A stretch of DNA of 43,341 bases from Bacteroidales bacterium (GTDB taxonomy: Bacteria > Bacteroidota > Bacteroidia > Bacteroidales > Paludibacteraceae), in NCBI GenBank assembly GCA_015061185.1, contig SUWZ01000028.1, forward strand, positions 1 to 43,341. Reading direction: 5' to 3'. Shown here one piece after another: positions 2,904 to 43,341 of this stretch. Numbering within the stretch: position 1 is the stretch's first letter; every line of letters starts with the position of its first letter. The translations under genes and the position numbers were made by a program. The notes under the pieces were generated by a model. The model did not search any database and had not been told where the DNA came from. It saw only the letters and a program-made list of their open reading frames with translations.

Positions 2904-4022
2904 ATGGAAAATAGGCGAGTAGAATTCTTTTGGAATAGGGAGTCTGTAGTTGAGATTCTTATTTGGGTGGCAGTTTTTCTTTTGTTAACTGTCAGTAGTT
3001 TCCCTTTGGATTTTTATTTATCATTTTCATTATCAATTGTTCTTCTAATAGGAATGATTCTCCTTTCTCTATTTAATAGAAAGTTTATAATTCCTTTTTT
3101 TCTAAGTAAAGAACGTTTCTTTTGGACACTTTTATTCACAGTTGTTATCATTGTTCTAATGACAATTGTTTTTTCTTTTTTAGAAGAGCGCATTTTGTAT
3201 TATTTTATAGAAAAAAACAGAGTTGCATCAGAAGTGTCATTATTGGATATCTCTTTGCCGGAAGAAAGAAAGCCCTTTTTTGAAGAAGAGTCTATTGTCT
3301 CCCTTCTTGGTAATTCTCAAACAACAAAATGGAAAATTTTGATTCTGTTTTTAGGTGTTACTTTGGTGAATTTTTTGTCGTTTTATAGGCAAAGGAGTTT
3401 AGTAGCTGAACAGGTCAGAAACTCATTATTACAAGAGAAAATGCAGATGGAACTGAATTTTCTTCGCTCCCAAATCAATCCTCATTTTTTGTTTAATGCG
3501 ATGAATAACCTTTATTCTTTGGTGTACATGAAAGATAAAAATGCTCCCGATGCAATTTTATCTCTTTCAGAGATGCTGAGATATGTTACAAATTGTTCTA
3601 AAAACAATGAAATTTTGCTGGAAAAAGAGATTCTTTATTTGGAAAATTATATTGATTTTCATCGTTTTAGTTTTGAAAATCCACTAAATATTACTTTTGA
3701 AAAATATGTTGAGTCTGAGTCTATTATGATAGCACCTATGTTGCTTCAACCTTTTTTGGAAAATTCGTTTAAGTATAGTGGAGTGGGTCGGGAAGATGAT
3801 TCCTATATTTTATTGTCGCTGAATGCGACTAATAATCAACTCCATTTTTATATAGAAAATACCATCTGTGAGAAATTTCGCACAAAAAAAGAATTTTCAA
3901 ATGGTGTAGGCTTGCAAAATGTACAACAACGTTTGCAGTTGTGTTATCCTAATCGTTATGTATTGAGTGTTAACGAATTGAATAATATCTATCAACTTGA
4001 TTTAGTAATTAATTTAAAATAA
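2904..4022 (+). CDS. LytS/YehU-type sensor histidine kinase
   Basis: This 372-residue inner-membrane kinase probably phosphorylates the response regulator encoded 6 bp downstream. Four hydrophobic segments (about residues 16-32, 38-56, 72-92 and 144-161) form the sensor part; no extracellular binding domain is evident. A short coiled coil leads into the His_kinase domain (PF06580) with phospho-acceptor His194 in QINPHFLFNAMNNLYSL. This is followed by an HATPase domain with N box LLQPFLENSFKY (about 277-288) and G box NGVGLQNVQQRL (about 337-348). GGAGG sits immediately before the ATG at 2904. The stimulus is unknown. A solitary family A repeat end lies at about 2830-2850 in its upstream region. 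Confidence 0.93.
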   Translation: MENRRVEFFWNRESVVEILIWVAVFLLLTVSSFPLDFYLSFSLSIVLLIGMILLSLFNRKFIIPFFLSKERFFWTLLFTVVIIVLMTIVFSFLEERILYYFIEKNRVASEVSLLDISLPEERKPFFEEESIVSLLGNSQTTKWKILILFLGVTLVNFLSFYRQRSLVAEQVRNSLLQEKMQMELNFLRSQINPHFLFNAMNNLYSLVYMKDKNAPDAILSLSEMLRYVTNCSKNNEILLEKEILYLENYIDFHRFSFENPLNITFEKYVESESIMIAPMLLQPFLENSFKYSGVGREDDSYILLSLNATNNQLHFYIENTICEKFRTKKEFSNGVGLQNVQQRLQLCYPNRYVLSVNELNNIYQLDLVINLK

Positions 4023-7824: not shown

Positions 7825-7835
7825 ATCTAACAATT

Positions 7836-8039
7836 TTAGGAGGGTTCCATAAATTCGTTTCGAGGAATTTTTGAATTTATTTCGAGAGGTTGCCGATCGA
7901 AAGAAAGTGCAGTGCGGGCATTAAGACTGACTATCAGACAGTAAGTTGTCGAAATAAATCAAAAAGTACCGAAGAGTTTATCTCTCCCCATGATTTATGC
8001 TTTTAATTTAAATATGGTGAATCTATAGAACTCACCTCT
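7836..8039. repeat. family A MITE-like element splitting hisD and hisC
   Basis: The left end contains GGGTTCCATAAATTC and the right end CTATAGAACTCACC. The interior has ATTTATTTCGAGAGGTTGCCGATCG and AATCAAAAAGTACCGAAG. The right terminus reaches the hisD stop codon (8038-8040). This is the only large gap in the his cluster. Confidence 0.7.
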
Positions 8040-17109: not shown

Positions 17110-17336
17110 ATTTTGAGTGTTGCTATAAATATTTTAGGCAGGTTTTAGAAATTTATTTTGCGGATTTTTTGAAGCTATTTCAATTGGATTGCTGTTTAAA
17201 AGAAGGAGGATTGCGAGTAGAATGACAGAATGACAAACAGCAAAGGGCAGAACGAAATCAAAAAAGTACCGAAAAAACATCTCCCACGGATTTTACCTTC
17301 GTAATCATAATTGGTTAATTTATAGAAACCACTTTT
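17110..17336. repeat. diverged family A MITE-like element upstream of rlmN
   Basis: The left end carries TTGCTATAAAT and the right end AATTTATAGAAACCACTTTTAG. Internal landmarks AAATTTATTTTG and AATCAAAAAAGTACCGAAAA match other family A copies. The boundaries are approximate. It ends about 10 bp before the rlmN start, so it forms most of the rlmN leader. Confidence 0.6.
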
Positions 17337-20478: not shown

Positions 20479-20490
20479 AATTTTTTTTGA

Positions 20491-20634
20491 CGAGGGGGCT
20501 ATAAATTCATTTCGAGGAATTTTTAAAGTCAGCTTTTAAGTTGCCGAAATATATCAAAAAGTGCCGGAAAGTTTATTCCCACTCGATTAATCCCTTTTAA
20601 ATATAAAATGGTGAATCAGTAGAACTCACTTTAA
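20491..20634. repeat. family A MITE-like element, shortened copy downstream of pdxA
   Basis: The left end is GGGGGCTATAAATTCATTTCG, and the right end contains AGAACTCACTTTAAA. It keeps the AATCAAAAAGT-like stretch (ATATCAAAAAGTGCCGGAAAG) but lacks about 60 bp of the centre. Confidence 0.65.
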
Positions 20635-22242: not shown

Positions 22243-22317
22243 GGTGGAAGATGGGGATCGAACCCACGACCCTCAGGACCACAATCTGATACTCTAACCA
22301 ACTGAGCTACTCCCACC
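22243..22317 (-). tRNA. tRNA-His (GTG)
   Basis: The minus strand folds as a cloverleaf. The acceptor GTGGGAG pairs with CTTCCAC, and an extra 5' G (-1) faces C73, the histidine identity feature. The D arm is GCTCAGTTGGTTAGAGT, the anticodon loop TTGTGGT with anticodon GTG, and the T arm GTGGGTTCGATCCCC. CCA is not fully encoded. It has its own promoter and terminator. Confidence 0.95.
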
Positions 22318-29161: not shown

Positions 29162-29223
29162 AGTAAATCTTTATTTCTTTTTTTTGTAGAAGTCTTTATT
29201 TTTTCTTCTGCGATTTTCATTAA

Positions 29224-29414
29224 GAAGTTGTTTAAAATTTATTTCGAGCATATTTGAGAGCGATTTTTAAGATTATTTTTATTATTCTTTTGCAGTTAAT
29301 AGTAGTCTATTCTCAAAAAAGAATAGTAAAGATAGGCTAAAAGAGCCTCAAAGATGCCGAAAAAGAAAGAGTAAAAACTCAAAAACAATTTAATAATAAA
29401 ATTTAAACAACTTT
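29224..29414 (+). repeat. family B MITE-like element, 191-bp copy in the mlaE leader
   Basis: The left end is GAAGTTGTTTAAAATTTATT and the right end AATAAAATTTAAACAACTTT (last base diverged). TAA direct repeats flank it (29221-29223 and 29415-29417). The predicted transcription start for mlaE falls at its right edge, so the whole element would be transcribed. No gene is present between 29162 and 29493. Confidence 0.9.
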
Positions 29415-29420
29415 TAAAAG

Positions 29421-35108: not shown

Positions 35109-35184
35109 ATTTAGGTCGAAAAGTTTTGAATCGTATTTTGTTAATAGAGCCTAAAATAACTTTCAAAATCATTCCGACCTAAAT
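35109..35184 (-). other. 76-bp imperfect inverted repeat downstream of the sugar porter
   Basis: ATTTAGGTCG-AAAAG-TTTTGAA pairs with TTCAAAA-TCATT-CCGACCTAAAT. It begins 8 bp after the porter stop codon. It could be a 3' RNA hairpin or another small repeat family; no T-run marks it as a simple terminator. Confidence 0.5.
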
Positions 35185-35192
35185 AAGATGAG

Positions 35193-36596
35193 TTAGTTGG
35201 ACAAACTTCTTGGACTACCCTTTTTTCTCCAATGTTCTTCGATTTTTTCAAGAGAAACACCTTTGGTTTCAGGAATGTAGAAGTATCCCCAAAGAAGCGC
35301 AATTAAAGAAATTGCAGCAAATACCCAGAATGTAGAGGCGATGGCTATGTTTTCTCCTCCCAACAGGTAGTTGAATCCGCCAATCATTTTAAAGAATGTC
35401 CATGCTACCAACGTATTGAATCCCCAGTTGGCAAGAGAACCGATTGAAGAGCCTAATCCACGTACTTTTAATGGGAATATTTCGGATATTATCAACCACG
35501 CTAAAGGACCAAGACTTATAGCAAAAAATGCAATATAGATCAACATGGAAGCTACTAACACAATCTTTGTAAATTCGCCTAATGCATCACTAAGCGCAAA
35601 GCATGCTCCAATAAGCACTAAAGATGCAAAAATTCCTGCAGTTCCAATGAAAAATAGCTTTCGTCTTCCGATTTTATCAATAAGGAAAAGAGAAAGAATC
35701 GTGAATAAAACGTTCACTACACCCACTGACACAGATGCCCAAATAGCAGCTTGGTTGCCATTGAATCCTGCTCGTAAAAATATGTCGGGACTATAGTAGA
35801 TAACAGTGTTTATACCTACAAATTGTTGGAAAAACATAATTCCTACAGCAATGATCAGTGCATTCCTCATCCATGGTTTAAATATCTCTGTCCAAGGCAT
35901 TTGAGATTTGTCTTGTTGAATCTCTTTTCGCATATTATCAATGGATTTTTCAACCAATTTAGGGTCTTCTGTCATTCTAAGTACTTTCAAGGCTTCCGCT
36001 TCTCTCCCCTTACTCATTAACCATCTTGGAGTTTCCGGAAGGAAATACATTCCGATGTACAAAATGATAGCAGGAATCACACCTACATAAAACATGGGTC
36101 TCCAACTTTCCGGGTTACTATTATCAGCCAATAAACTATCGCTGATGTAGGCTGCTAAGATACCAACGGTAATTAGTAGTTGGAACATTGATACTAAGGT
36201 TCCTCTGATTTTTGTCGGAGAAATTTCTGCAATATACAATGGGGTTGCAAAAGATGAGACACCAATGGCTAAACCTAAGTATAGGCGAGATATTAAAAGT
36301 TGAGTCACGTTAGGAGCAATTCCACTCCATAATGCACCCGTTACAAAGACAAATGCTGAGCCTAAAATTACTCTTCGTCGTCCTAAAATATCAGTAAGAC
36401 GACCACAAACTAAGGCTCCGATTACAGCTCCAATTAGACCGAATGCTGTAATGTTTTCTATTTGACTATCAGTTAGTTGAAAGTCGTTTCTAAGGAAAGG
36501 AATTGCTCCTGATATTACTCCGGTGTCGAACCCGAAAAGCAATCCGCCGGTAGCGGCAATGGCGGCAATTATCCACACTAAATTTTTGTTATACAT
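35193..36596 (-). CDS. sugar porter family MFS transporter
   Basis: This 467-residue inner-membrane symporter has 12 helices and the full sugar-porter signature set: GFDTGVISGAIPFL (helix 1), CGRLTDILGRRRVILGS, LYIAEISPTKIRGTLVSMFQL, FLPETPRWLMSKGR, QQFVGINTVIYYSPDIF, DKIGRRKLF and FYIPETKGVSLEKIEEHW. The family includes XylE, GalP and AraE (proton-coupled hexose/pentose uptake). QQFVGINTVIYY suggests a hexose or xylose. The substrate cannot be fixed. It is monocistronic; no catabolic gene is adjacent. Its promoter is not clear. Confidence 0.93.
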   Translation of the reverse strand: MYNKNLVWIIAAIAATGGLLFGFDTGVISGAIPFLRNDFQLTDSQIENITAFGLIGAVIGALVCGRLTDILGRRRVILGSAFVFVTGALWSGIAPNVTQLLISRLYLGLAIGVSSFATPLYIAEISPTKIRGTLVSMFQLLITVGILAAYISDSLLADNSNPESWRPMFYVGVIPAIILYIGMYFLPETPRWLMSKGREAEALKVLRMTEDPKLVEKSIDNMRKEIQQDKSQMPWTEIFKPWMRNALIIAVGIMFFQQFVGINTVIYYSPDIFLRAGFNGNQAAIWASVSVGVVNVLFTILSLFLIDKIGRRKLFFIGTAGIFASLVLIGACFALSDALGEFTKIVLVASMLIYIAFFAISLGPLAWLIISEIFPLKVRGLGSSIGSLANWGFNTLVAWTFFKMIGGFNYLLGGENIAIASTFWVFAAISLIALLWGYFYIPETKGVSLEKIEEHWRKKGSPRSLSN

Positions 36597-40297: not shown

Positions 40298-40380
40298 GAG
40301 AGGTTGTTAGTTCAAAAGAAGAGAAATGTTTAAACATTCGATTTGACTGCTATATTGTTATGCAAGAGGGTATTGATAAA

Positions 40381-40836
40381 ATGAGTGAAATTTATCATGG
40401 AAGCAATCAATCTGTGAAAAATCCAAAGATTTTAGTCCAAGGTTTCTATAAAGATTTTGGCTTTGGGTTTTATTGCACTAAGTACGAAAGGCAAGCAGTC
40501 CGATGGGCATTGACAAAGAAAGGGACTCATTGCGTAAATGTATATACTTATGAGCCTTCAGAAACGTTGAAAACTAAGGTTTTTAGTAAGATGGATGATG
40601 AATGGCTTGATTTTGTTGCTAATTGCAGAATTGGGAAGGAGCATGATTATGATATAGTGGAGGGTCCGATGGCTGATGATACGATTTGGAATTATGTGGA
40701 GGACTTTGTTCTGAAGAATATTTCGAGAGAGGCTTTTTGGGAGTTGGCAAAATATAAGTATCCGACTCATCAGATTGTATTTTGCACCGAGAATGCTTTA
40801 AAAACTATTTCGTTCAAAAGCCATTACACTTTATGA
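40381..40836 (+). CDS. DUF3990 ART-like protein, probable toxin
   Basis: This protein of about 151 residues starts at the ATG at 40381, with GAGGG about 10 bp upstream; another ATG lies at 40360. It matches DUF3990, which has an ADP-ribosyltransferase-like layout: N-terminal YHGS (His6), then DFGFGFYCTKYERQAVRWA (Tyr of an H-Y-E type triad), and later DYDIVEGPMADDTIW (candidate Glu). It overlaps the next gene by 4 bp (ATGA), as toxin-antitoxin pairs often do. The ART and toxin roles are inferences from fold-type motifs and arrangement; NAD use and target are unknown. It sits inside a capsule locus, separated from ugd by about 80 bp. Confidence 0.7.
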   Translation: MSEIYHGSNQSVKNPKILVQGFYKDFGFGFYCTKYERQAVRWALTKKGTHCVNVYTYEPSETLKTKVFSKMDDEWLDFVANCRIGKEHDYDIVEGPMADDTIWNYVEDFVLKNISREAFWELAKYKYPTHQIVFCTENALKTISFKSHYTL

Positions 40837-41294: not shown

Positions 41295-41407
41295 TGTTGA
41301 GACATTGTAATGAAGAACTTTGAAATGATGAATACAGACACTTGAAACTTGAAATTTGAAACATGACACAAAGAACGCACGTGGTGAATTGAAGCTTTAT
41401 ATTATTA

Positions 41408-41710
41408 ATGCGATTATCATCAATAGAAATAAAAAAGATTATAGATGTTGCCAAAGAGGTATATGGCTCGTCTGTTAAAGTATTTTTATTTGGTTCTCGC
41501 ACTGATGATTCGAAGCGAGGCGGAGACATCGATTTGTTAATCAGAACAGAGACTCAAGAGAAGTTGGGATTTATGGGGCGAGTTTTGATGCGAGCGAAGT
41601 TAAAAATGGTTCTTGGAGATCAGAAGATTGATATAGTGGGAGATAATGAAGAGTCTGATTTTGTTCAAAGTATAATTAATGGTGCTATTTTGTTAAATGA
41701 TGCAATCTGA
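41408..41710 (+). CDS. MntA-like minimal nucleotidyltransferase antitoxin
   Basis: This 100-residue MNT-fold protein has the nucleotidyltransferase signature FGSRTDDSKRGGDIDLLI: Gly29-Ser30 and the metal Asp40 and Asp42. In MntA/HepT systems, the MNT protein AMPylates a Tyr of the HEPN toxin and neutralises it. It overlaps the following hepT frame by 14 bp. It appears intact although its partner is split by a repeat element. The third catalytic acid is probably in KIDIVGDNEES. Confidence 0.85.
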   Translation: MRLSSIEIKKIIDVAKEVYGSSVKVFLFGSRTDDSKRGGDIDLLIRTETQEKLGFMGRVLMRAKLKMVLGDQKIDIVGDNEESDFVQSIINGAILLNDAI

Positions 41711-42379
41711 AAATAAAATTTTGATAGAAAGAATTCATAGAGAATTTATCATTGCAGAAAAGCATCTTTCTCGAATAGAAGAGTGTGTTTCATTGATGAG
41801 TAACATGTTTCCTCTTTCAACTGTTTCTTATTCTTTTTTAACTTCAGAAGAGGTTCGATTATTGGATCAATTTAGAAGTTGTTTAAATTTTATTTCGAGC
41901 ATATTTGAGAGAGATTTTTAAATCTATTTTTAGTCTTCTTTTGCAGAAAATAGTGGACTATTATCAAAAAAGGAGAATAAAAATAGGTTAAAAAGAATCT
42001 CAAAGATGCCGAAAATAAGAGAGTGAAACTCTAAATTTTTTTTTAAATAAAATTTAAACAGCTTCTTATATTCAGATTCTCAAAATTGCAAGATTGTTTA
42101 GGAGCAAAGATGTTTCGATATACGTTGCAATTATTGGATGAGGATGTTGAGAATGCTCCCATGCGAGATGTTTTGAATATGCTTGAACGTTATAATTTAC
42201 TTTCTTCCGTTCAAGAGTGGATGACTCTGAGAGAATTAAGGAACGAAGTTGCACATGATTATCCGTTTGAGGTGGATGATGTTGTTGAATCCCTTAATCA
42301 TTTGCATGAGAAATGGGAATTGCTGAAAGTGGTATTGTTTCGACTCAAAGAGGTCTATTTGTCTATCGTTAAGGGGTAA
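41697..42379 (+). pseudogene. HepT-like HEPN toxin gene interrupted by a family B element
   Basis: Two pieces flank the repeat. 41697-41873 encodes MMQSENK...LLDQF; 42069-42379 encodes FRFSKLQDCLGAKMF...VKG. Removing 41875-42068 (the element plus one TTA) joins them in frame as LLDQF-I-FRFSKLQD and gives about 162 residues, the normal HepT size. The HEPN RNase motif is RNEVAHDYP (R-x4-H-x-Y, including the Tyr that MntA modifies). As it stands, the 5' piece reads into the element and stops at 41921 (74 residues). A 3' piece could start only at a weak TTG at 42086. Toxin function should be lost unless the element excises. Confidence 0.9.
41875..42065 (+). repeat. family B MITE-like element, 191-bp copy inside hepT
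   Basis: The left end is GAAGTTGTTTAAATTTTATT and the right end AATAAAATTTAAACAGCTTC, forming an inverted repeat of about 20 bp. TTA direct repeats flank it (41872-41874 and 42066-42068). The centre is non-coding and forms a long imperfect palindrome around TAGTGGACTA. This copy defines the family because its empty site is readable. Confidence 0.95.
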
Positions 42380-42457
42380 TGAGTTTCAAGATTAAGTTTC
42401 AAACATACAGCCACTTGACACTTGAAACGTGCGTGGTGCATTCTCGAAAGTTCAATA

Positions 42458-42586
42458 ATGTCTGAATTAAAGCAAAAAACAGTAAAGGGCGTTGTGTGGA
42501 GTGCCGTAGAACGATTGATAGATTTGAAGAAAAATAGAACCACTCAGAGCAGAAAAAGTGATGTAATTTGCAAAACTAATTGCTGA
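42458..42586 (+). pseudogene. N-terminal fragment of a polysaccharide flippase (Wzx-like)
   Basis: The frame begins MSELKQKTVKGVVWSAVER, the stereotyped start of Bacteroidota O-antigen/capsule flippases. It then diverges into LIDLKKNRTTQS... without any membrane helix and stops after 42 codons. The remaining flippase is absent, so this is a deletion scrap. It shows that the region once continued with capsule genes. A separate scrap frame before 42604 (LIAEAKKILSQAK, then stop) is unassigned. Confidence 0.65.
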
Positions 42587-42897: not shown

Positions 42898-43341
42898 ATG
42901 AGCAGAGAGGAGATACAATCATTAATCTCTACAAACGAAGTAGAGAAATTAATGCTGAATGTGAGAGGGCAAAATGTCTTGCTTGATAGAGACGTTGCCA
43001 TGCTTTATGGTGTGGAGACCAGGATTGTGAATCAAGCTGTAAAGAATAATCCATTAAAATTTCCGGAAGGTTATATTATAGAGTTGGATGAAAAGGAATC
43101 TTCGGTTTTAAGATCAAAAATTTTGACCTTAGAACAAAGGGAGGGAAGAGGTCGTCATTCTAAGTACAATGTAAAAGCCTTTACAGAAAATGGCGACTAT
43201 TTTAAAATCTCCAAGAGCTGTAGAGGCAACTCTTGCCATCATAGACACCTTTACGATGACAAGACAATTGGCTCGCACGATGGAGTCGCTTCAAACAGTG
43301 GAAGATGGAGGAGAACAGCAGAAGTCTCTTCTTCAAAAGAC
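42898..43341 (+). pseudogene. ORF6N-domain protein, frameshifted and cut by the window end
   Basis: The first 98 residues match the ORF6N (KilA-N-related, phage-type DNA-binding) domain: VRGQNVLLDRDVAMLYGVETRIVNQAVKNN, FPEGYIIELDEKE, GRGRHSKYNVKAFTE. After FTE (about 43188) the frame turns to noise. The expected continuation (MATILKSPRAVEATLAIIDTF, then TMTRQLARTMESLQ) is found in the +1 frame from 43190. A few residues are also missing at the junction, so a small deletion with frameshift is likely. The 3' end lies beyond the window. Confidence 0.75.

Follow-up and report, generated by a model that had tools for sequence, protein, structure and literature searches.

A 191-bp IS5-type miniature element splits, and very probably inactivates, a HEPN gene beside an intact MNT gene in a Bacteroidales genome

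An interrupted HEPN gene follows an intact MNT gene

The window analysed here is a stretch of 43,341 nt that makes up contig SUWZ01000028.1 (assembly GCA_015061185.1) of a Bacteroidales bacterium of the Paludibacteraceae. Near its right end lies a pair of genes, an intact minimal nucleotidyltransferase (MNT) gene followed by a HEPN gene with an interrupted frame. An earlier note, made from the sequence alone, had proposed that a miniature inverted-repeat transposable element (MITE) splits this HEPN gene beside the intact MNT gene. The features of the locus are as follows, in window coordinates.

41408..41710, + strand: MNT gene, 100 amino acids, intact, putative antitoxin (profiles, conserved carboxylates, predicted fold)
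41697..41871, + strand: HEPN 5' piece, 58 whole codons ahead of the insertion; the frame continues into the element up to 41921, and the piece overlaps the end of the MNT gene
41872..41874, + strand: target-site duplication TTA, left copy (sequence; same triplet on both sides for 27 of 29 paired copies)
41875..42065, no strand assigned: MITE, 191 bp, AT-rich near-complete palindrome with terminal inverted repeats GAAG(T/C)TGTTTAAATTTTAT, without a transposase (repeats, copies, flanks)
42066..42068, + strand: target-site duplication TTA, right copy (sequence)
42068..42379, + strand: HEPN 3' piece with RNEVAHDY (RX4HXY) (match from residue 59 of intact relatives)

Between the left open reading frame (ORF; 41697-41921) and the right one (42086-42379) the offset is 389 nt, which is 2 modulo 3. 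The inserted DNA plus one TTA duplication amounts to 191+3=194 nt, likewise 2 modulo 3, and this explains the offset, so the boundaries proposed earlier (191 bp plus one TTA) stand. The two HEPN pieces were searched separately against a database of 52 intact single-ORF HEPN proteins encoded beside MNT genes, namely those from 52 of 80 loci that passed a filter of 140-185 residues and an R-x4-H motif. The match of the left piece (58 aa) stopped at residue 57 of proteins from a Phocaeicola metagenome-assembled genome (MAG; L037), a Bacteroides MAG (L038) and Odoribacter lunatus (L039), with E values of 1e-8, 3.5e-12 and 1.3e-8 in this database, and the match of the right piece began at residue 59 of the same three proteins (E values of 5e-37, 2e-38 and 4e-34). 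Because the separately searched pieces match consecutive stretches of the same intact proteins, the split is derived and precise, and the central proposal of the earlier note is borne out.

The HEPN fold was modelled on the intact relative L038 rather than on the window gene. In this AlphaFold model (mean predicted local distance difference test score, pLDDT, 95.2) the break point falls within helix 49-80. As had been stated before, the RNEVAHDY motif is located in the right piece; its R, N, H and Y are invariant in 49 of 49 aligned HEPN relatives, a set pre-selected for R-x4-H that holds 49 of the 52 proteins (L054, L102 and L110 omitted). Taken alone, the right piece matched NTase_sub_bind (E 1.7e-5, under that family's cut-off) and, in the PDB, HI0074 (E 0.014), and in PADLOC it matched CARF-HEPN models only, at about 0.008-0.01. 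For the left piece alone, Pfam gave nothing beyond one chance match at 0.22. An ATG at 42110 with AGGAG ahead of it is a candidate start of a C-terminal fragment. We consider it highly probable that the MITE inserted into the HEPN gene and inactivated it.

The neighbouring MNT gene bears no such damage. Its protein matched Polbeta (1.4e-7) and NTP_transf_2 (5e-5), both above cut-off, and D40, D42 and D75 are invariant in 35 of 35 aligned sequences (the window MNT and 34 of 80 relatives). Its predicted fold resembles HI0073 and MNT antitoxins, and PADLOC returned PDC-S09 models (best 1.4e-5); a search of the MNT protein alone against the PDB gave nothing better than 0.26. The motif is GSX9DXD, as read earlier, and is the same in all 80 MNT-anchored loci, a set biased by one search pattern (DDSKRGGD) that lies within the motif. 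Judged by these residues and the model, the MNT looks catalytically competent. At E 0.001, its own genome yielded neither a further NTP_transf_2 gene nor any HepT-like (PF01934) gene. Promoter-like sites numbered 8, not clearly higher than in shuffled sequences (mean 5.8, standard deviation 2.5), and no terminator-like site was found in the same scan. A 23-base direct repeat (21/23 identical) at 41332-41354 and 42405-42427 brackets the MNT-HEPN module and is possibly a trace of its gain.

The element belongs to a large family with constant target triplets

As RNA, the element would form a single, nearly complete hairpin (-65.6 kcal/mol, z -9.6). It occupies at least 42 distinct places in its own genome (2,897,178 bases, 96 contigs) at 81-100% identity; this count is a floor drawn from 68 matches listed, the other 26 being short or reverse-strand palindrome matches, and 40 of 268 candidates were scored. 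Matches to the terminal repeat with at most 3 mismatches numbered 313 in the genome, against 5 for a reversed-pattern control, which together with the 42 places is well beyond chance. Thirty copies were fetched, one of which gave no repeat pair; identical 3-bp flanks, TTA or TAA, bordered 27 of the 29 paired copies. Comparisons of flanks between copies were identical in 361 of 812 cases (44%), because nearly all flanks are TTA or TAA. The insertion into the HEPN gene looks recent, as neither HEPN piece has yet lost its open frame and the copy at 41875-42065 shares 97-99% identity with 15 others in the genome.

We screened 40 loci (30 of the own genome and 10 of the congeneric genome G012) for gene interruption. 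A loose two-sided criterion singled out five of 36 paired copies, and four of the 40 loci had no pair. Two of the five positives were judged real genes, the HEPN gene described here and a PDDEXK_2-family gene at L018:1372-2273, which an element copy parts into pieces at profile positions 3-29 and 106-228 with about 76 positions missing. The pieces of L007 had no Pfam match, and L030 and L126 were judged from their frames only not to be real genes. Element copies thus seldom split genes, which fits tolerance of insertions in dispensable genes.

Among 16 genomes of the genus, the element was present at E 0.001 in two, its own and G012, and the MNT gene was found in one, so that the 15 others provide no empty counterpart of this insertion. 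In G012, homology to the window ends at 41334 and other genes follow. The earlier note had taken the locus as a clean empty-site proof of the family boundaries; direct comparison yields no such site, and what upholds the boundaries is the set of intact homologues together with the G012 counterpart of another family copy. That copy (window 29219-29418) has a contiguous counterpart in G012, two bases off the expected empty site, which supports the boundaries to within a few bases.

Comparison with G012 also turned up two other differences. A group of nested elements (L133; G012:C99:1926-2597), in which copies related to the MITE family lie inside one with TATAGAACCC-like ends, corresponds to a place in the window without any element (35183-35194), a reciprocal insertion polymorphism. 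Window 40328-40716, which covers most of a DUF3990 gene (40360-40833), is absent from G012, and the next ~620 bases are 97% identical.

An IS5-family element with the same ends is the plausible parent

In its own genome, neither PF01609 nor PF13359 had a match at E 0.001. PF13586 matched in three of the 16 genomes, including contig C8 of G012 (L131). The element there has a 172-residue IS5-family transposase frame that scores 120.1 bits on NF033580 (cut-off 110) and is enclosed by GAAGCTGTTTAAATTT ends, each with a TTA next to it; its transposase gene is broken. We assign the MITE to the IS5 type because its terminal repeats are common to it and to this element. The own-genome match to PF13586 (L130) fell below the cut-off and is of a different IS5 type, and the L131 protein as a query found there one 46-residue 5' remnant (L139) with one such end. 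Hence no complete transposase of the matching type was found in the assembly by PF01609, PF13359, PF13586 or the L131 query. Common ends and the target duplication suggest that the MITE may have been mobilised in trans by this insertion sequence (IS).

A Bacteroides fragilis plasmid (CP103159.1) carries an IS5-family element with the same TTA/TTA flanks as the MITE and related ends. This element differs from the MITE in having a 258-codon transposase gene and in ends unlike at several positions; its transposase is 71.6% identical to that of contig C109 of another genome, G007. Short non-autonomous IS5-type MITEs whose terminal repeats resemble IS5-family elements are likewise described for Porphyromonas gingivalis (PMC4596501). 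Of these, BrickBuilt has a different terminal-repeat sequence, varying duplications in contrast to the constant TTA/TAA of the window MITE, and 19 copies in that paper's strain against at least 42 places here.

The pair is homologous to HepT/MntA and closest to HI0074/HI0073

Profile comparison placed the HEPN protein with HI0074 (1jog, 5e-7) and HepT (0.004), and the MNT protein with HI0073 (1no5, 7e-5) and MntA (0.004), so that HI0073/HI0074 of Haemophilus influenzae is the best profile match of both. The best structural matches were HEPN toxins for the HEPN model and HI0073 and MNT antitoxins for the MNT model. Adjacent MNT and HEPN genes with the expected folds are therefore present, as in a two-gene module of the HI0073/HI0074 kind. 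The type VII toxin-antitoxin system HepT/MntA of Shewanella oneidensis (SO_3166/SO_3165) likewise has a HEPN RX4HXY protein adjoining an MNT with a GS-DXD motif (PMC7641770), and the folds are similar. Its MNT motif is GSX10DXD, whereas the window has GSX9DXD and a broken HEPN gene; the HI0073 and MntA chains both carry one residue more in this motif than the window MNT.

Curated models gave low scores throughout. On the NCBIfam MntA model the window MNT reached 20.7 bits against a cut-off of 60. Of four intact relative pairs, three scored 18.9-29.8 bits on the MntA model and the fourth had no match; on the HepT model one pair scored 20.3 bits and the other three had no match (cut-off 60 in each case). 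The right HEPN piece scored 19.9 bits on TIGR01987 (cut-off 55.8) and 25.3 on PF08780 (cut-off 31.8), and the four intact relatives were also under these cut-offs. The HepT/MntA naming used in the earlier note is therefore qualified on account of the GSX9DXD motif and the scores under curated cut-offs: by profile and fold the window pair are homologues of HepT and MntA rather than strict members. Homology makes it probable that the HEPN protein acted as an RNase toxin with the MNT as its adenylylating antitoxin, and we think it likely that the window MNT silenced this very protein.

HEPN-side damage recurs among relatives

The state of HEPN was examined in 81 MNT-anchored loci, the 80 already mentioned and a Parabacteroides distasonis plasmid locus. 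By a rule based on span, 62 have a full-span HEPN frame, nine an interrupted or partial one (L061 ambiguous), seven no HEPN match, and three lie at a contig edge; an earlier, looser rule (90 aligned columns) gave 64, seven, seven and three for the same loci. In the 14 loci partial or without HEPN by the looser rule, the MNT match reaches at least position 81 of the 92-position profile in 11 and is shorter in three (L082, L094, L107). In the P. distasonis locus (L149; NZ_OY725754.1, 36314-42598), the MNT at 3001-3462 is 52% identical, and HEPN is cut after ~12 codons and followed by rplU, which is an independent loss of the toxin side. HEPN-side damage beside MNT thus recurs among relatives, and draft errors may account for part of it.

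In the opposite direction, among five HEPN-anchored loci (the window's own omitted), the MNT match reaches profile position 85 or further in four (L032-L035), and the fifth, L036, lies at the edge of a contig; sampling through MNT (81 loci) versus HEPN (five loci) gives no test of an asymmetry in decay. In-frame stops occur in HEPN of L032, L035, L073, L078 and L079. Recoding was rejected as their explanation since their positions vary and three kinds of stop are represented, which points to decay or draft errors. An apparent clustering of break points near the RFxxLQD segment was dropped, because the 90-column rule calls only mid-gene breaks. A plasmid DNA search with the locus gave no match, a plasmid tblastn search with intact HEPN gave none, a phage collection held no MNT match, and among viral contigs 10 pattern stretches were found, none of them a relative. 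In a locus of Candidatus Parabeggiatoa (L043:1950-3032), HEPN lies upstream of MNT in two pieces ~490 bases apart, and an inverted repeat with 36-nt arms (2235-2359) starts at the end of the first piece.

Other features of the window

Sequence resembling GGGTTCTATAAATTCATTT recurs at 7834-7875, 2238-2279, 17132-17173 and 20486-20527 and makes up a second repeat family, probably again of MITEs. The ORF6N gene at the contig end (42898-43341) shows an apparent frame change near 43190. A short frame at 42459-42520 resembles what we take to be the start of a polysaccharide flippase gene, the rest of which is missing. An Rfam scan found only a tRNA (22243-22316).

Discussion

Taken together, the locus can be read as follows. 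An IS5-type MITE would have transposed into a TTA site within the HEPN gene of an MNT-HEPN module, duplicating the TTA. Sequence and model suggest that this broke the HEPN protein in its second long helix and parted its N-terminal third from the part with the catalytic RX4HXY, while the upstream MNT, by its look still competent, was left untouched. If, by homology, the HEPN protein is an RNase toxin that the MNT silences by adenylylating the tyrosine of the motif, the insertion would have disarmed the module harmlessly to the cell. Damage on the toxin side is to be expected, because loss of the toxin should be harmless and loss of the antitoxin should not.

That the two frames were always separate genes, or that the assembly is chimeric at a repeat, is barely credible. 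A draft genome with many near-identical element copies does invite chimeras, but the two pieces continue one another in register as parts of a single gene, the triplets match, and the single HEPN frame in 62 of the 81 relatives speaks against an ancestral split, the circumstance that the earlier note had named as fatal to its own reading. It is also highly unlikely that the pieces still function, as an element-tailed N-terminal piece or as a C-terminal fragment from 42110: both are open, and AGGAG precedes the ATG, yet the break lies within a long helix of the intact relative's model and we found no sign of a working split form. The further suggestion that precise excision would re-arm the toxin, making the element a reversible switch, is not supported. 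The duplicated TTA and the frame arithmetic permit such excision in principle, but the assembly offers no complete matching transposase, only the 46-residue remnant, and the G012 IS copy is decayed; we regard a switch as extremely unlikely.

Selection could instead have kept the orphan MNT as an antitoxin against incoming HEPN toxins, an anti-addiction role that agrees with its intact catalytic residues and with HEPN absent or broken beside MNT in other lineages (the 14 re-examined loci; the cut HEPN start of P. distasonis). Intactness after a recent insertion, however, needs no selection, and its own genome holds no PF01934 gene and no second NTP_transf_2 gene; we consider such retention improbable. 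A wider version, in which loss of HEPN is a repeated event in the GSX9DXD clade and the competent MNT left behind is maintained to give immunity to incoming modules of that clade, with the MITE insertion as a fresh first step, seems unlikely as well. Our preferred reading therefore remains the plain disarming of the module by the MITE, an event that is ordinary in kind and unusually clean. A literature search turned up no report of a MITE lodged in a HEPN/MNT module, although this does not establish that there is none.

The locus offers a clean natural instance in which a mobile element disarms a toxin-like gene and spares its partner, and for which the boundaries, the target duplication and a plausible parent IS are identified. 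It provides a case in which to ask whether a solo MNT still neutralises the HEPN proteins of its clade, and the relatives point to several independent losses on the toxin side.
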